From: a virus
DNA: 35,980 nt
Virus record (IMG/VR): IMGVR_UViG_3300028558_000011
Coordinates: 1-35,980 of that record
Direction: 5' to 3' (one strand)
Below, one piece after another: positions 2,201-31,617 of this stretch. The notes beneath the pieces are model-generated. The model made no database searches. It saw only the letters and a program-made list of their open reading frames with translations, and was not told the DNA's origin. Within the stretch, counting starts at the first letter, position 1, and the number at the start of each line of letters is the position of its first letter. A program made the translations under genes and the position numbers.

Positions 2201-2395
2201 GTGAATATGACAGAGAATATAGTATACATCTCCTTTTCTCACAACAATCTTCTTCTTAGAATTAACGAAAAAACATTTTCTACCGAAAATCTAAAAACCA
2301 ATTTTTTAGGAATTGGCAACTTTCAATTTCATTATCTAGTCGATTTCTCAAAAATATTAAAAAAAATTAAAAACAACAAGGATACCAATGAATAA
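2201..2395 (+). CDS. Doubtful small reading frame before the initiator gene
   Basis: An open frame of 64 codons from a GTG (or 62 from the ATG at 2207), ending inside the start of the initiator gene with an 8-bp overlap. The product is lysine/asparagine-rich with no recognisable motif. A weak AGGA lies upstream of the GTG. It fills the otherwise empty stretch between the TCACTA cluster and the initiator gene. It could be a translationally coupled leader gene or merely an open stretch in the leader. Confidence 0.3.
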   Translation: MNMTENIVYISFSHNNLLLRINEKTFSTENLKTNFLGIGNFQFHYLVDFSKILKKIKNNKDTNE

Positions 2396-3377
2396 TAATC
2401 ACATGCGAGTTCCGGGACTATTTATTCCAGCTGAAATCCTCGAAATGGAAGATCTTTCATTTTTTGAAATGCTTCTTCTTTCCTGGATAGATGCTCTCTA
2501 TTGCCCACAACATGGAGGATGTTATGCCTCTAATGAATATTTGGGAAAAAAAGTTCGAAGCTCTAAAGAAAATAGTATAGCAAAAGCTTTAACTAGACTT
2601 AGGAAAAAAGGATTGATTGAAGACATTTCTTTTAATGGAAAAACAAGAGTAATACGAGCGCTCATACATAAATATATCGATAAGAAACAATCTAAATCAG
2701 GGTTGGATAAAAGTAAGAAAAGGGTTGGACAAACGTCCATCAAGGGTTGGACAGATGTCCATCAAGGGTTGGACAGACGTCCATCGAGTCCTTATATAGA
2801 TAATAAAGAAGATAGAAAAGGGAGGAGGAAGGCGGCACAGCCGCTCAGCCCCTCCCCTTCTTTTTCAGAAAAAAATAAACCAGAAATGGTGAAGTTTGGT
2901 GAGTTTGTAGAACTCAAGAAAGGGGATTATGAAATCCTATGCGATGAGATCGGTAAGGATCTCGTGGATTACTACATCCAATCCATCAACAACTACATAC
3001 CCAATGCGCCTAAGCAATACAAAAGCTATGCATCTGTAATTCGTCAATGGTATTTGAAGGATAAAGCAAAGGGATCTCTTCCTAAGAAAGAAAAAATAAA
3101 AGGGATGACCCGAAGATCATCCCCTAAAGAAACGAGAGAAGAGATTGAAAAGCTAAAGAAATTAGCTGATCGTCTAGAAGGTATCCTGAGACGTAGATTC
3201 ACTGCAAACATTATTTTTGAATCCGGACCTACAAAAGTAATGTTAGTCAATAAATCAAAAGATTTTTATAAGGAGTACGAATATGAAGACTATGACTTGC
3301 AAACCTTCAAGGAAGAAATTAGAAGAGGTATTGATATTTGCTTTCCAGGTTCTAGTAAAGAAATTCCTTGGAGTTAA
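2388..3377 (+). CDS. Replication initiator / replisome organiser with winged-helix N-terminus
   Basis: A 329-residue protein. Residues about 10-90 are a winged-helix domain typical of phage initiator proteins: LSFFEMLLLSWIDAL, then GCYASNEYLGKKV, then the recognition and wing part NSIAKALTRLRKKGLIEDI. A polar linker (about 95-165) is encoded by the 22-bp iterons. Residues about 165-230 match the second domain common in phage replisome organisers: FGEFVELKKGDYEIL, then VDYYIQSINNYI, then the YKSYASVIRQWY block. The C-terminus (235-329) is charged. By analogy with lambda O, the N-terminal domain probably binds the iterons inside its own gene and the rest recruits the host helicase or loader. 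No polymerase, primase or helicase is encoded in the window, so host machinery must be used. Confidence 0.82.
   Translation: MNNNHMRVPGLFIPAEILEMEDLSFFEMLLLSWIDALYCPQHGGCYASNEYLGKKVRSSKENSIAKALTRLRKKGLIEDISFNGKTRVIRALIHKYIDKKQSKSGLDKSKKRVGQTSIKGWTDVHQGLDRRPSSPYIDNKEDRKGRRKAAQPLSPSPSFSEKNKPEMVKFGEFVELKKGDYEILCDEIGKDLVDYYIQSINNYIPNAPKQYKSYASVIRQWYLKDKAKGSLPKKEKIKGMTRRSSPKETREEIEKLKKLADRLEGILRRRFTANIIFESGPTKVMLVNKSKDFYKEYEYEDYDLQTFKEEIRRGIDICFPGSSKEIPWS
2699..2786. repeat. Four 22-bp iterons inside the initiator gene (probable origin)
   Basis: Three near-identical 22-bp tandem units begin at 2721, 2743 and 2765. Each starts AGGGTTGGAC and contains the small dyad TGGAC-N4-GTCCA. A degenerate fourth unit keeps only AGGGTTGGA at 2699, exactly in register. 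Because 22 is not a multiple of 3, the copies are read in three different frames and encode unrelated peptides, so selection acts on DNA rather than protein. An AT-rich stretch (2790-2818) that could unwind follows directly. Confidence 0.8.
2820..2856 (+). other. GC-rich hairpin next to the iterons
   Basis: GGGAGG (2820-2825) can pair with CCTCCC (2851-2856), enclosing a tight inner hairpin GCGGC-aca-GCCGC (2832-2844). It lies in the initiator coding sequence, just after the AT-rich stretch. It could be part of the origin (for example a single-strand initiation or pausing structure), though chance pairing in a G/C-rich patch is possible. Confidence 0.35.
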
Positions 3378-3384
3378 GGAAAAA

Positions 3385-3801
3385 ATGCTGAAAAGAATCA
3401 AAGCCCCATCTACGAGCCGAGTATTCGTTAACAAATGCTCCTGGGAATGCATAGGAGGCCGTACAATCTACTTTCGGAGTAAATTTGAGGTTAGGGTAGC
3501 CTGGTACCTAGAAAGTTTAATACAGGCCCGGAAAATAGGTAATTGGGATCATGAGCCAAAGACCTTCTGGTTCGAGGAAATAAAAAGGGGGGTAAGATCT
3601 TATCTTCCGGATTTCAAAATTACTCGTCTGGATGGCACTCATTGCTGGATTGAAGTGAAGGGGTACATGGATGCAAAAAGTAAAACAAAGCTGAAGCGAT
3701 TTAAAAAATATTATCCTAATGAGGAACTTTTCCTATTTGGATTAGAAAAGTTCTCAAATCAATTTTCTTTTTTAGAAATAGAGAAAAAAATTACAGGATG
3801 A
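3385..3801 (+). CDS. PD-(D/E)XK-like phage endonuclease
   Basis: I start this at the ATG at 3385, which follows TAAGGA and begins just after the initiator stop, giving 138 residues. A longer in-frame start exists at 3283 but lies inside the initiator gene. The nuclease pattern is clear: FRSKFEVRVAWYLESL near residues 28-43 (conserved Glu), YLPDFKI near 75 (the Pro-Asp), and WIEVKGYMDAKSKTK near 89-103 (ExK). This arrangement resembles DUF1064/T7 endonuclease I-like proteins that phages use as junction-resolving or debranching nucleases. The position after the initiator gene and the recombination functions nearby fit that role. The exact family is uncertain. Confidence 0.7.
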   Translation: MLKRIKAPSTSRVFVNKCSWECIGGRTIYFRSKFEVRVAWYLESLIQARKIGNWDHEPKTFWFEEIKRGVRSYLPDFKITRLDGTHCWIEVKGYMDAKSKTKLKRFKKYYPNEELFLFGLEKFSNQFSFLEIEKKITG

Positions 3802-8575: not shown

Positions 8576-9325
8576 ATGTGTGATGAAATGTCGAATTGTT
8601 GTTGTATGGGTGCTCAAGGACCTCAAGGTGTTCCGGGATTACAAGGTTCACAAGGACCTCAAGGTATTTCTGGGCAAGATGGTAAACCTGGACCAATGGG
8701 TCCACAGGGTATTCAAGGTTTACATGGAGTAGATGGACAAATGGGACCAGCAGGTCCTCAAGGTCCTATTGGCCCTATGGGTCCTCAGGGCGTGCAGGGA
8801 TTACAAGGGGTTCCTGGTAAAGATTGTGAAGCAAATAATTCTTCTTGCCAAAGATATTGTAACGTCTATGCATCAGTAGCTCAAGTTGTCGGAGCTTATA
8901 GTGCACCTAATGATATGGTTTTGTTTGATAGACAAAATTCTGTATCTGCGGGAGATTTTGATTTATCAATGAGTAATGTCAGTGGAGATGTAAAATTCCT
9001 AAAACATGGTATTTATCATATTCAATGGCAGTTACAAGCTAGAATATTGCCACCAGTTCCAGACCCAGTTCCTTCTTGGAGTTTCGGATTCTGGATAAAT
9101 GGCGTTTTAGTTCCTGGAAGTATTTATTCTGGATTCACGCAAGCTCCTGGAGATGATGCTTGTCACAGCACTGGTGATGTAATCATAGAAGTTCAAGCGA
9201 ATGACATATTAAAACTTAGAAATACTTCTGTATCAGCGGTAAATTTAAATCCTAATGTGACTGGAAGCGTTTTCCCTATTACCATAGCAAGTGTTAATAT
9301 CGAATGTTTAAAATCTCTTGCATAA
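8576..9325 (+). CDS. Collagen-like fibre protein with C1q/BclA-like head
   Basis: A 249-residue protein. A cysteine-rich N-terminus (CDEMSNCCCMG) leads into 24 uninterrupted Gly-X-Y triplets (residues 12-83, rich in GPQ, GVP and GLQ), which should form a collagen triple helix. Residues about 95-249 are beta-rich (MVLFDRQNSVSAGDFDLS, then KFLKHGIYHIQWQLQARI, then WSFGFWINGVLVPGSIYSG) and resemble the trimeric C1q/BclA C-terminal jelly roll. It is most likely a trimeric surface fibre. The gene sits between terminase and portal rather than with the tail fibres, so it may decorate the head. It forms its own unit, with an AT-rich element before it and a terminator after it. Confidence 0.88.
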   Translation: MCDEMSNCCCMGAQGPQGVPGLQGSQGPQGISGQDGKPGPMGPQGIQGLHGVDGQMGPAGPQGPIGPMGPQGVQGLQGVPGKDCEANNSSCQRYCNVYASVAQVVGAYSAPNDMVLFDRQNSVSAGDFDLSMSNVSGDVKFLKHGIYHIQWQLQARILPPVPDPVPSWSFGFWINGVLVPGSIYSGFTQAPGDDACHSTGDVIIEVQANDILKLRNTSVSAVNLNPNVTGSVFPITIASVNIECLKSLA

Positions 9326-9444: not shown

Positions 9445-11544
9445 TTGTCTTTCTATTATCCTCCATGGAATAATGCATTAGAGCCTTCTCAAGGTAATGT
9501 TCGACAGTGGCTTGATAATCTCTACAGCAAGTTTCAACCAATAGAGCAAAGTCGTTGGAATCAAAGTAATATAGACACTCTTTTCTATGCTGGGTCACAA
9601 ACATTTGTAAATAGATATTTTAATTTCTCTCCTACTACTTCCTATCAACAGTACTATTTCAATCTTGTTCAGCAACCAGTGAATATAATCACTGGTTATC
9701 AAAGACAGCATCGTAAAGCTATTATGTATGAATCTGCTGAGGGAGGAGATCCTCAGACTACAGATCAATACACCAAATTGATTACACATGTATGTAACAC
9801 AGAAGGAATACATGAGCAATTCTCTAAAGCATGCGAGTTAGCTGCTGTATCTGGCATGGTTTTGTTGCAACCATACTTGGACTATACATCTGGAGATGCT
9901 GCACAAGGAGAAATGAAACTAAAGGTATGGGAATACAATGCATTTCTAGTAGATCCTTACTTTAGAAATCCTGACATGTCAGATGCTCAATTTGTATGGA
10001 CTCAAGAATATATAAGTAAAAAAGAAGCTGAAGATCGTTTTCCTGATAAGGTTTCAGCAATTACTCCAATGGCCGGTACTCCACAGCGATATGGAAGTTT
10101 CTATTTCCTTCCAGAAAACTACAACATGGCTAGAAATGATTTAATGGTACTTTCATATGTCTGGTATAAATGGAAAAGAAAGAAAAAAAGATTATACAGC
10201 AAGACGAGAAATCAGTTCTTTGATTTCTCGGGGGGAGATGGACAACTTGAACAAATTCTTTACAATATACCTGACATGGAAGAAGTTACTGTGGAAGTTC
10301 CATGTTGGAAGCTTGCGGTTGTTCTCAATGATCAGCTTATGTTCCAAGGAGATAATCCATTGGGCTTTGATGGTTGCCCTTTCATTCCTGTATTCTGGAA
10401 TTATGATCCTCACATCAATTATTATGACTTGCGCGTGCGTTCTCTTGTTCGTACCATGCGTGATCCTCAATTTTTATTTAATTATAAGGTCATTACTAAT
10501 AACGATATCGCAGCAGCTACGATCAATGCTGGATGGAAGAGAAAAGTTGGAGCTGTAGCTAATGAAGATAATCTTAAAAAGGCTGGACAGGGGTGGGATG
10601 TAATAATAAATGAAGGATTTGAGATGACAGATGTGGAGAAAATAATCCCATCAGCTGTTCCTCAATCTGATTTAGAGTTAGCCCAACAAATGTCTGATCT
10701 AATTTTTCAGACTTCTGGAATAAATCTAGAGAATTGGTCTGGTCAAAATGATAAACAGATATCAAGTTTGACTATGATGTTAAAGCAAGCGGCTAACTTA
10801 ATGGTATTTCAAAAATACTTTGATCAGTGGGATTATTCTCTAAAGCTTTTAGGTGAGAGAATGCTACAGATAGTGATGAATAATTGGAATGCTGAAAAAG
10901 TACACTTGATGATAGGAGAAGAACCATCACCCTTCTTTTATTCCAAAGTATTTAGTAAATTTAAAACTCTAGTAGAAGAAGCAGATTTAACTCCTACTCA
11001 ACAGAATTTACAAGCACAGCAGATGATGGACATAAATGCAGCTTTTGGCAGAGAAGTATTTCCTCCATCAATGATTATTCCTAAGATGAATATCACTGGT
11101 AAGGGAGAAATTATTCCTTATCTACAACAGCAGGAGCAAAATGCCCAACAACAACAACAAGAAGAATCCGTACTCAAGCATGCCTTCGAAGATGCCAAAC
11201 TCAAAGAATTGTACTCAAAAGCAACAGCAAACATCGCAACAGCAAGAGAAAGACATGGTCGTGCTGAAGCGGATATTGGTCTATTTGAAGAAAGGCTCAG
11301 TGAGATTACTAGAAATCGTGCTCTCGCCACTAAAGACAAGATGGAAGCGCTTGAGAAACTGGTGGACGTCATTGGAAAATACGGAGAAATAGAAGCTGCT
11401 CTCAAAATGCAAGAAATAGAAAGTTTTGACTATAGACAAGAGCAGAATGAAGACAGAGAAAAAGTAGATGCTAAACAAACTTCTTTATCGAATGAATTTT
11501 TACAGCAGATTATTTCTCCAAATCCACAGATGTCTAATAAATGA
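9445..11544 (+). CDS. P22-like portal protein
   Basis: A 699-residue portal, the dodecameric ring through which DNA enters and leaves the head. The length and several segments fit the P22 gp1 type: YYFNLVQQPVNIITGYQRQH (about 70-89), the conserved ACELAAVSGMVLLQPYLDY (about 127-145), and the wing/crown region EYNAFLVDPYFRNPDMSDAQ. Residues about 545-690 are glutamine-rich and helical, as expected for the long C-terminal barrel. The start is TTG, chosen because GAGG lies upstream and no ATG is near. It is the only large gene in its segment and is followed by an AT-rich element before the next unit. Confidence 0.88.
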   Translation: MSFYYPPWNNALEPSQGNVRQWLDNLYSKFQPIEQSRWNQSNIDTLFYAGSQTFVNRYFNFSPTTSYQQYYFNLVQQPVNIITGYQRQHRKAIMYESAEGGDPQTTDQYTKLITHVCNTEGIHEQFSKACELAAVSGMVLLQPYLDYTSGDAAQGEMKLKVWEYNAFLVDPYFRNPDMSDAQFVWTQEYISKKEAEDRFPDKVSAITPMAGTPQRYGSFYFLPENYNMARNDLMVLSYVWYKWKRKKKRLYSKTRNQFFDFSGGDGQLEQILYNIPDMEEVTVEVPCWKLAVVLNDQLMFQGDNPLGFDGCPFIPVFWNYDPHINYYDLRVRSLVRTMRDPQFLFNYKVITNNDIAAATINAGWKRKVGAVANEDNLKKAGQGWDVIINEGFEMTDVEKIIPSAVPQSDLELAQQMSDLIFQTSGINLENWSGQNDKQISSLTMMLKQAANLMVFQKYFDQWDYSLKLLGERMLQIVMNNWNAEKVHLMIGEEPSPFFYSKVFSKFKTLVEEADLTPTQQNLQAQQMMDINAAFGREVFPPSMIIPKMNITGKGEIIPYLQQQEQNAQQQQQEESVLKHAFEDAKLKELYSKATANIATARERHGRAEADIGLFEERLSEITRNRALATKDKMEALEKLVDVIGKYGEIEAALKMQEIESFDYRQEQNEDREKVDAKQTSLSNEFLQQIISPNPQMSNK

Positions 11545-14857: not shown

Positions 14858-14980
14858 CTACTTATATTTACGAAATTTTCTTTCCCAAATTTTATTTACT
14901 ACTCTAGAAGCACTGAAAAGACCAAAAATTACTCCTATAATAAAAAAATTTATAAACATAAGAATTAACAGTACACTCAT
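14858..14980 (-). CDS. 40-residue membrane protein
   Basis: A short leftward gene. The peptide has one hydrophobic helix (VLLILMFINFFIIGVIFGLF, residues 3-22) and a strongly basic tail (NKIWERKFRKYK). GAGAGG lies 7 bases before the ATG. Its ATG overlaps the recombinase stop codon by one base (TAATG), so it is translationally coupled to the recombinase. Function unknown. Confidence 0.6.
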   Translation of the reverse strand: MSVLLILMFINFFIIGVIFGLFSASRVVNKIWERKFRKYK

Positions 14981-15609
14981 TATTTTTCCTCTCTCAAATA
15001 TTTATATACAGCCTCTCGGCTCATATTAAACACTTGTGCTATTTTTGTCTTTTTATGTCCCTGATCAGCCATTTGCTTTAGTGCGATTATTTGTTCTTCA
15101 TTTAACATTTTTTTTCTTCCTACATATATTCCACGTGCTTTGGCTAGACGAATTCCTTCTCGTTGTCTTTCTTTTATTAAAGAAAGTTCAAATTCTGAAA
15201 ACGATCCCATAATGGAAAGTATTAGAAGAGATAGAGGAGAATCATCTCCTGTGAATGTTATGTTTTCTTTTATGAAAGAAATGTAAACTTTTTTTTCAAT
15301 TAGTTCTTGGACTATATTACGTAAATCACGTAAATTTCTAGCCAATCTATCCATACTATGAACAAATAGATGATCTCCTTGTCTTAAATAAGACATCATT
15401 TCCTTAAATTGAGGTCTATCTAATACTTTTCCAGTAAACTTATCAATAAATATTTTATTAAGATGAATACCTTCTAATTGTCTTTGAGTATTTTGATCAG
15501 TAGAACTAACTCTTATATATCCTACTTTTTGAATATTGGATTTTTTTTGTTTTTCATTAATTTTATTAACAACATCTATATATATATTATTTAATATGGA
15601 TTCATTCAT
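14980..15609 (-). CDS. Small serine recombinase (resolvase/invertase family)
   Basis: A 209-residue site-specific recombinase. The catalytic domain (about 27-165) has VGYIRVSSTDQNTQRQL with the nucleophile at Ser35, the arginines of SMDRLARNLRDL near 87-96, and the E-helix pattern FSEFELSLIKERQREGIRLA. A short C-terminal HTH (about 172-205: LNEEQIIALKQMADQG, then TKIAQVFNMSREAVYKYL) binds DNA. The length is that of resolvases and invertases, not of large serine integrases. It could resolve multimers of a circular replicon, invert a fibre segment, or mobilise the cassette it heads. I see no obvious inverted crossover sites around the fibre genes. An extra 26 residues precede the usual start of the domain. 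Confidence 0.93.
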   Translation of the reverse strand: MNESILNNIYIDVVNKINEKQKKSNIQKVGYIRVSSTDQNTQRQLEGIHLNKIFIDKFTGKVLDRPQFKEMMSYLRQGDHLFVHSMDRLARNLRDLRNIVQELIEKKVYISFIKENITFTGDDSPLSLLILSIMGSFSEFELSLIKERQREGIRLAKARGIYVGRKKMLNEEQIIALKQMADQGHKKTKIAQVFNMSREAVYKYLREEK

Positions 15610-28957: not shown

Positions 28958-29013
28958 TAATAGATTTTACTGAAAAAATGTCATATTTTGGTGCTTTTAA
29001 AAAGAGGTTAAAA

Positions 29014-31617
29014 ATGTCACTCGCATATGGTATTGGCGGTTTAATAAATGTTCCACCTCCTGCACTTACAGGATTTGGGCCACCTTCAGCTAGTTTTAAA
29101 GGACAATTGGGACAAGCATATTTTGATAAGTCTACTAATCCTCCTACTGAATACGTATACAATGGAGTGAGTTGGGTGACTGCCGGTGCTAATCCAGCAA
29201 CGACTACAACCTTCGGTACCGTAAAACTTTCGACTCTTGCTCAATTAGAAGGCGGTACTGCACCAGCAGGAGCAGTAGTGCCATTAGCTAATGATGTCTT
29301 CACATATGTGCAAAGTGTAGTTATTGGAGGCGCTAATATTGCCCAAACAACCGTTACTGGTATAACGAACCTTGCTACTAATGCTCAGGCAGTCGCAGGG
29401 ACAGCAACTATTCCAGGAGTTACTGCTCTAGCAGTACAGCCATCAAACCTTGCAGCTGTGTTTGCTGCTCCTCCTGCAACTGGAGGAACTACTCCAAATT
29501 CTGCTGTATTTACTACACTTGGAGCAACCACTGTAACATTTACGGCTGGTGGTACATGGGCATCCGGTGGTACAGCTATTAGTATTGGTGCAGATGCAAC
29601 TACAGATACTATCAATATTGGTACAGGTGCGGCAGCACGTACAATCCATATTGGTGATTCTACACAAGCTAATTTGGTAACTATTGGATCTGCTACAGGT
29701 GCAGCAGCTCTTACATTGCAAGCTGGAACAGGTAACTTTGTTCTTACAACAGCAGCCACAACTAACGTGACAATGGGTGCTGCTCAAACGACTGGTACTT
29801 TCACAATTGGAGGTACTGCTGCAACAGGTACAATGACACTAGGTTCGTCTTCTGCTACAAATATAGTAGCGATTGGTAATGGTTCTGGAGCAACTACAGT
29901 GAATATAGCCAACGTTACTACAGCAGGGGCTGTAAACATAGGGGCTGGATTAACCACAGGTGCCATCACAATTGGAGGTACTGCAGAAAGTGGAACGATT
30001 ACATTGGGATCATCTTCTGCATCTAATACGCTAGTTATTGCTGGAGGTTCAGGGGCAACTACATTACAGGTAGCCAATGTACAAACAGGTGGTTCTGTGA
30101 CTGTAGGGGATGCGATGACTACAGGCACTATCAGAATTGGAGGTAGTGGCGCTCAGACCGGTACAATTACTATCTCTGCTTCTACAGGTGCACAGACAAT
30201 TGCAATCGCTAATCTTGGTGGAGCAAAAACCATTGGAATAGGAAATGGTGTAGATGGTAATCAGATCACGATTGGAAATGGTATTAATACAACTTCACAA
30301 TCAGTAACAATTGCAGGTGGTGCAGCAGGCGCAGCCTCAACAGTTAGTATCTTAAGTGGTAATGCTACTGCAGGAACACAAACTCTGAACTTGGCAACTG
30401 GAACTGGTGGTAAAACAGTACATATAGCGGATGGTGCTGGAGTAAATTTAGTAACCATTGGTTCTACAAATGGTGCTTCATCTCTAACATTACAATACGG
30501 AAGTGGTGGCTTTACCCAAGATGGTGCAGCTACTGGTAACGTTAGCTTGTTCCCTTCAATTACTTCAGGTACCTTCAATATCGGTGGTACAGGTGCCAAC
30601 ACTGGTACAGCTACTATATTCGGAGGAACAGGTGCTCAAACTGTTAATATTGCTAACTCTACTGGTGGTAAAACTGTAGCGATTGCCACAGGTGCTGGCG
30701 CTAATCTAGTATCTATAGGTAGTAATAATGGAGCATCATCCTTAACTTTACTAGCAGGTACAGGTAACTTCAGTTTAGATGGTGCTGCCACTACAACCTA
30801 CACATTTGCCCCTAGCGTCACTTCCGGTACAATCAATTTCGGAGGAACAGGTGCTAATACAGGAACAATGACTATTGCTGGCGGTACAGGTGCGCAGACA
30901 ATCAATATTGCCAACTCTACAGGCGGTAAGACAGTTGCAATAGCGACTGGTGCTGGTGCTAACCTAGTATCTTTGGGAAGTAGCAACGGTGCTTCTAGTC
31001 TTACTCTTCTAGCAGGTACAGGTAACTTCAGTTTAGATGGTGCCGCTACTACTACATATACATTCGCTCCTAGTGTTACTTCTGGAACAATAAATTTTGG
31101 AGGAACAGGCGCCAATACTGGTACTGCTACTATTTTAGGTGGTACAGGTGCGCAGACAATCAATATAGCTAATAGCACAGGTGTCAAGACTCTTAATATA
31201 GCAACTGGTGCAGCAGCAAATGTAGTAACAATAGGCACTACAAATAGTACATCTTCACTTACTTTAAATGCTGGTACTGGAGGTATTTCTCTTACTTCTG
31301 GACAAACGAAAAAAGTAACTGCTGTTGCTGCTGCTGCTTCTCCTTATGCTGTTCTTGGTAGTGATTATTTTATAACCACGGATACTACAGCTGGTGTATT
31401 GACTTTAACACTTCCTGCAGCTCCTGCTACTGGTAGAACATTGGTAGTATACGATGGTGTTGGCCAAGCGGCTGCAAATAACGTGACGATTGATGGTAAT
31501 GGAAAATCAATCGCTGCAGCTGGAACAAGTTCTGGAACTAAAACTTTAACAACAGCTTATTCATCAATGACATTGACTTACAATGGAACATTGTGGTGTG
31601 GACAAAAAGTAACTTAA
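29014..31617 (+). CDS. Long beta-repeat tail fibre
   Basis: An 867-residue fibre. I start at the ATG at 29014, which has AGAGG before it; a 12-residue longer form from 28978 is possible. The N-terminal 100 residues include QLGQAYFDKSTNPPTEYVYN and GVSWVTAGANP, a small domain common in fibres that attach to the tail. Residues about 170-760 are short Gly/Thr-rich beta repeats of about 11 residues (such as TVNIANSTGGK and TVAIATGAGAN), suggesting a beta-helix or stacked trimeric fibre. Three long repeats of 86 residues lie at 30583-31290. The C-terminal 110 residues form a separate head (DYFITTDTTAGVLTLTLPAA to YNGTLWCGQKVT), likely for receptor binding. Confidence 0.8.
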   Translation: MSLAYGIGGLINVPPPALTGFGPPSASFKGQLGQAYFDKSTNPPTEYVYNGVSWVTAGANPATTTTFGTVKLSTLAQLEGGTAPAGAVVPLANDVFTYVQSVVIGGANIAQTTVTGITNLATNAQAVAGTATIPGVTALAVQPSNLAAVFAAPPATGGTTPNSAVFTTLGATTVTFTAGGTWASGGTAISIGADATTDTINIGTGAAARTIHIGDSTQANLVTIGSATGAAALTLQAGTGNFVLTTAATTNVTMGAAQTTGTFTIGGTAATGTMTLGSSSATNIVAIGNGSGATTVNIANVTTAGAVNIGAGLTTGAITIGGTAESGTITLGSSSASNTLVIAGGSGATTLQVANVQTGGSVTVGDAMTTGTIRIGGSGAQTGTITISASTGAQTIAIANLGGAKTIGIGNGVDGNQITIGNGINTTSQSVTIAGGAAGAASTVSILSGNATAGTQTLNLATGTGGKTVHIADGAGVNLVTIGSTNGASSLTLQYGSGGFTQDGAATGNVSLFPSITSGTFNIGGTGANTGTATIFGGTGAQTVNIANSTGGKTVAIATGAGANLVSIGSNNGASSLTLLAGTGNFSLDGAATTTYTFAPSVTSGTINFGGTGANTGTMTIAGGTGAQTINIANSTGGKTVAIATGAGANLVSLGSSNGASSLTLLAGTGNFSLDGAATTTYTFAPSVTSGTINFGGTGANTGTATILGGTGAQTINIANSTGVKTLNIATGAAANVVTIGTTNSTSSLTLNAGTGGISLTSGQTKKVTAVAAAASPYAVLGSDYFITTDTTAGVLTLTLPAAPATGRTLVVYDGVGQAAANNVTIDGNGKSIAAAGTSSGTKTLTTAYSSMTLTYNGTLWCGQKVT
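30583..31290 (+). repeat. 258-bp coding repeats in the fibre gene
   Basis: Units begin at 30583, 30841 and 31099 (the third partial), each opening GGTGANTGT and running through GKTVAIATGAGANLVS to AATTTYTFAPSVTSGTINF. Units 1 and 2 are almost identical in protein but differ at many third codon positions, so the protein is conserved while the DNA has drifted. Confidence 0.8.

Follow-up and report, generated by a model that had tools for sequence, protein, structure and literature searches.

The locus raises the question of whether a set of short direct repeats lying inside the gene for a phage replication initiator is the origin at which the encoded protein would act. The DNA analysed here (hereafter the window) comprises the 35,980 bases of a virus record in IMG/VR. 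Its two ends carry the same 127 bp of sequence, so that the genome is circular or circularly permuted. The same region occurs in three more IMG/VR contigs (L004–L006) at 99.9–100% identity, and a search across IMG/VR for the exact two-unit dyad arrangement found these three contigs only. Searching IMG/VR with the single protein gave near-identical contigs only as the nearest relatives, so that an alignment search was needed. A DNA-level search of annotated phages gave no useful match, the genome scan found no close relative, and neither tRNAs nor RNA families were detected in the window. From the sequence features described below, we read positions 2699–2857 as probably the theta-type replication origin of a circular-genome phage, located within its own initiator gene (probability of about 0.88).

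The gene at 2388–3377 (+ strand) encodes 329 amino acids and is assigned to an initiator, or replisome organizer, on the basis of its open reading frame and its HTH_36 and PHROG matches. The Pfam family HTH_36 (PF13730) matches residues 30–77 (E = 1e-5, 25.7 bits against a curated cut-off of 25). The PHROG matches (phrog_2880 with E = 5e-18, phrog_270 and phrog_13246) are to replication initiation families over residues 11–148 and to a replisome-organizer family over residues 159–233, in agreement with the identity that the preliminary description had given to this gene. A profile of the relatives, which includes the window initiator itself, matches it with E = 2e-23. AlphaFold2, run with a 13-row alignment of related proteins (without the alignment the pLDDT was only 38), predicts a winged helix-turn-helix domain at about residues 10–100, confident to around residue 80 and less sure to 103; this is followed by a low-confidence linker (104–159) and then by a confident helical C-terminal domain from about 160 to 240. 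A fold search against the PDB returned generic winged helices only, none of them significant. A DUF1064/Holliday-junction-resolvase-like nuclease gene (3283–3801, + strand) overlaps the initiator gene downstream and is probably in the same early operon. A scan of 20 of the larger ORFs revealed neither a phage helicase nor a helicase loader.

Three full iterons with a period of 22 bp lie within the initiator gene on the + strand: AGGGTTGGACAAACGTCCATCA at 2721–2742, AGGGTTGGACAGATGTCCATCA at 2743–2764 and AGGGTTGGACAGACGTCCATCG at 2765–2786. The array begins ∼330 bp into the gene, at codon 111, and the units differ at only three of their 22 positions. Each contains a perfect TGGAC-N4-GTCCA dyad (2726–2739, 2748–2761 and 2770–2783, respectively), which is absent elsewhere in the window even allowing one mismatch and which is significant against column shuffles (p = 0.01). 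A degenerate half-iteron at 2699–2720 (+ strand) stands in register with the full units and matches them at 15, 14 and 13 of 22 positions (binomial tail of about 1e-4 to 1e-3); its 5' half, AGGGTTGGA, is kept, with the first nine bases of the unit intact. The preliminary description of three units plus a degenerate one in register, each full unit with its own small dyad, is thus borne out, with the qualifications that the units are near-identical and that the one counted as the fourth comes first. It had also pointed out that a 22-bp period shifts the reading frame, and indeed each unit is translated in a different frame, giving the unrelated peptides RVGQTSIK, GWTDVHQ and GLDRRPS. The iterons encode residues 111–133, within the low-confidence linker between the two confident domains, and this repeat-encoded segment is predicted to be disordered. 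In a scan for three 18-mers spaced 18–27 bp apart (top possible score of 54) the array scored 50, whereas 3000 shuffles of the gene's codons gave a mean of 31.2 (s.d. 1.6) and a maximum of 41. The next-best array in the window, with a score of 38, is at ∼8.6 kb inside a collagen-like gene, leaving 2721–2786 as the strongest three-copy repeat of the 36-kb circular record.

Relatives of the initiator were chosen by protein similarity, using tblastn of annotated phages and alignment searches of IMG/VR and of genomes (prophages); clustering at 70% identity gave 55 clusters, with lambda and TP901-1 included as reference points. In 45 of the 55 clusters the highest-scoring three-copy array of the locus falls within the initiator gene, where a share of 13% would be expected by length, this being the average fraction of the locus taken up by the gene. 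These in-gene arrays start at codons 82–131 (median 102), a range that includes codon 111 of the window initiator, where the iterons come directly after the HTH_36 domain, in the linker. For 39 of the 55 clusters the array score was reached by none of 200 codon shuffles; apart from one exception, the spacings in these clusters fall between 20 and 24 bp, and 46 of the 78 spacings are not divisible by three. As a positive control, the same scan recovers the known iterons of lambda in gene O. The iteron sequences vary among phages, examples being ACCCACGACAAAATTGTC in Cellulophaga phage phi39:1, CTATTGACGCAAAAATCA in Staphylococcus phage SAP3 and GGGGTGGACAAAAATGTC in IMG/VR locus L073, and the dyad beats column-shuffled controls at p ≤ 0.02 in 16 of 24 clusters.

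The preliminary description had made its reading depend on relatives having repeats at this place. They do so in the 45 clusters, including diverged relatives in which the repeats have other sequences (for example L037, the closest full-length relative), but ten clusters, among them LE1, TP901-1, ANDSL2 and KC5a, have no top array in the gene. Some of the ten show weak dyad repeats in the gene and others none, and the family rule therefore has exceptions or weak arrays. The proposal that iterons differ together with the winged helix is matched by a rise of iteron similarity with winged-helix similarity (Mantel rho = 0.45, p = 0.0005), a correlation that is suggestive only, because shared ancestry of the adjoining segments could cause it. 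Orf5 of Leptospira phage LE1 (L012/L011; L011:4241–4783) is a 180-residue significant homologue of the N-terminal domain of the initiator; it has no in-gene array, and two 18-bp repeats 26 bp apart are found upstream (L011:4051–4094). LE1 may belong to a lineage with its origin outside the initiator gene.

An AT-rich stretch and a GC-rich hairpin follow the array in the window, as had been described. Both are real, but the AT richness is only moderate: the stretch at 2790–2819 (+ strand), a likely DNA-unwinding element, has 80% AT in its best 30 nt, which is in the top 3% of a gene that is itself 63% AT. Across the family the AT richness 3' of the array is strong. In 24 of the 45 clusters, chosen for detailed examination, AT content averages 77% over the 40 nt 3' of the array, as opposed to 63% over the gene (p = 1.5e-6), and the DNA 5' of the array has 66%. 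Third codon positions in the 3' segment are 86% AT compared with 64% elsewhere (p = 1.5e-6, 24 clusters); because they share the bias, it is not due to amino-acid choice alone, and selection therefore acts on the DNA. An NNTSINNT-type peptide is encoded directly 3' of the iterons in many relatives, L015, L025, L028, L030, L039 and L041 among them, in DNA rich in AATAATACA, and the conservation of this peptide may really be conservation of a DNA-unwinding element. The hairpin of the window (about 2820–2857, + strand) has a DNA folding energy of −13.6 kcal/mol with a z-score of −2.7 for a 58-nt segment, the z-score varying from about −2.7 to −3.9. A strong hairpin (z ≤ −3) is present within 110 nt 3' of the array in 11 of 24 clusters, the window included; the feature is thus frequent in the family, not universal, and in some relatives the hairpin may be an extra iteron. 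After detrending, the cumulative GC skew of the circular sequence is lowest at 2513, so the turn that was to be looked for does fall within ∼200 bp of the array, as an origin close by would have it, but it is confounded by gene orientation and adds little, since genes change direction near 1.7 kb. The point of gene divergence is near 1.7–1.8 kb, and the gene for an Erf-like ssDNA annealing protein (532–1158, − strand) is transcribed away from the initiator gene.

The repeats could instead be autoregulatory sites, bound by the initiator to control its own transcription or copy number (by a roadblock or by handcuffing), with the origin elsewhere. Plasmid iterons often double as control sites, which counts for such a role, as does the position of the array ∼330 bp inside the gene with promoter-like sites, at chance level, upstream. 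However, AT-rich DNA and a hairpin are found on one side of the array, as an origin would have, the window is without any second comparable array, and the same placement is that of the origin in lambda and 80alpha (PMC7466680, PMC5499656); we therefore consider autoregulation with the origin elsewhere to be unlikely. A neutral tandem duplication by slippage, with no function of the DNA, might be expected in an unconstrained linker: the segment is predicted to be disordered and would tolerate slippage, and near-identical units are what a recent duplication should leave. We reject this explanation as very improbable because arrays of differing sequence occur at the same codons in the 45 of 55 diverged clusters, because the dyads exceed column-shuffled controls in 16 of the 24 clusters and because the neighbouring AT-rich bias extends to third codon positions. 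That the repeats serve a different protein, for instance a repressor or one for packaging (pac) recognition, is scarcely credible: phage operators are likewise dyads of such size and an HTH repressor-like gene is nearby (1827–2084), but operators are usually at promoters, the dyads of the window are only in the initiator gene and the family-wide position is tied to that gene and not to repressor or terminase genes.

For the replication origin that we favour, the activity of the origin itself, as well as initiator binding, DNA melting and the recruitment of a helicase, is inferred by analogy with known systems. Dimers of the winged-helix domain would bind the dyad in each of the three 22-bp units and would stack on the array to form an initiator–DNA complex. 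Strain from wrapping or bending of the DNA would open the AT-rich stretch that lies 3' of the array, and the C-terminal domain could then recruit the host helicase or primase, either directly or through host loaders; recruitment from the host is proposed because neither a phage helicase nor a loader was seen among the larger ORFs scanned. With a repeat-encoded linker that is free to vary, DNA-level constraint can dominate there.

A general rule for HTH_36 initiators can be formulated, to which we would give even odds: the origin would be the linker-coding segment, the winged helix and the half-sites of the iterons would co-evolve, and the AT-rich unwinding element would appear in the protein as an Asn/Thr/Ile-rich peptide such as NNTSINNT. 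If the rule is true, the sequences of thousands of uncultured phages and prophages could reveal where their origins are and what specificity their initiators have, and incompatibility groups would be predictable; for uncultured phages the location of the origin is otherwise rarely known. The window phage gains a concrete candidate pair of origin and initiator, and for dozens of diverged phages and prophages (Firmicutes, Bacteroidota, Fusobacteria and Proteobacteria) protein homology alone suffices to locate a candidate origin. A recognition code could be learned from the many combinations of winged helix and iteron that occur in nature.

Several other genes of the window were noted. A P22-like portal protein is encoded at 9445–11544; a tblastn comparison with 50,697 annotated phage records gave no match to it, and the virion lineage is therefore far from described phages. 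Between the terminase and portal genes is the gene for a collagen-like repeat protein (8576–9325) with a weak match to the BclA C-terminal domain. A tail-fibre-like gene (28978–31617) contains a 258-bp tandem repeat (30577–31211; 2.5 copies, 76% matches), and a serine recombinase of the DNA-invertase type is encoded at 14980–15609 (− strand); no long perfect inverted repeats were found around the tail-fibre genes.

The location of an origin within an initiator gene is already known from SPP1 and, with experimental support, from lambda/Stx phages, 80alpha and pSK41; it is the family-wide placement rule that reaches further than a single ordinary case. A literature search of incomplete coverage found no paper stating this rule, which reviews of phage replication modules may contain. 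In lambda and Stx phages, dimers of the O protein bind iterons in gene O beside an AT-rich tract (PMC7466680, PMC3985674). The lambda origin resembles that proposed here in having dyad iterons of ∼18 bp, spaced 20–24 bp apart, placed centrally within the initiator gene and with AT-rich DNA on the 3' side (PMC7466680). It differs in iteron sequence, in the dyad spacer (N5 in lambda, N4 in the window) and in the initiator family, which is Phage_rep_O (PF04492) in lambda and HTH_36 in the window. That the window protein is not lambda O, previously judged by eye, is upheld by profile searches: it has no PF04492 match at E up to 1 (lambda O itself gives 6e-36), the HTH_36 initiator profile does not find lambda O (E = 5.8), and no loader resembling lambda P was found in the window.

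Gene 38 of SPP1 holds oriL, and in 80alpha the loss of ORF20 is not complemented in trans, which its authors took to suggest an origin embedded there (PMC5499656); the 80alpha record annotates a putative rep_origin within gp20. Both have an origin embedded in a replisome-organizer gene, as is proposed for the window, although 80alpha gives only a weak profile match (E = 0.008) and a repeat scan of 80alpha found no array comparable to the 22-bp array of the window. The replisome organizer of the TP901-1 type combines an HTH domain with a DnaB_2 C-terminal domain, which is absent from the window initiator. RepA_N plasmid initiators offer a further comparison: in pSK41 the N-terminal winged helix binds Rep boxes in the centre of rep, the ori-encoded linker is dispensable and the C-terminal domain contacts DnaG (PMC5703833). 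The window initiator has no RepA_N (PF06970) match at E up to 1. Its structural similarity to 4pt7 and 4pql, which we take to be RepA_N domains, is below significance.

The HTH_36 initiators of Oceanospirillum phage GJ44, Cellulophaga phage phi39:1, Staphylococcus phage SAP3, Flavonifractor phage Cormatin and Fusobacterium phage FNU4 were also compared. Their protein identity is ∼20–35% and their iteron sequences are different, and several of them, like many relatives in general, have a phage DnaB or DnaC gene beside the initiator gene, which the window phage apparently lacks. They nevertheless share a homologous N-terminal domain and tandem iterons with a period of 21–24 bp, in the same linker and with an AT-rich neighbour. 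Sequence comparison places the window protein among the HTH_36 phage initiators, and the position of its iterons is typical of the family.
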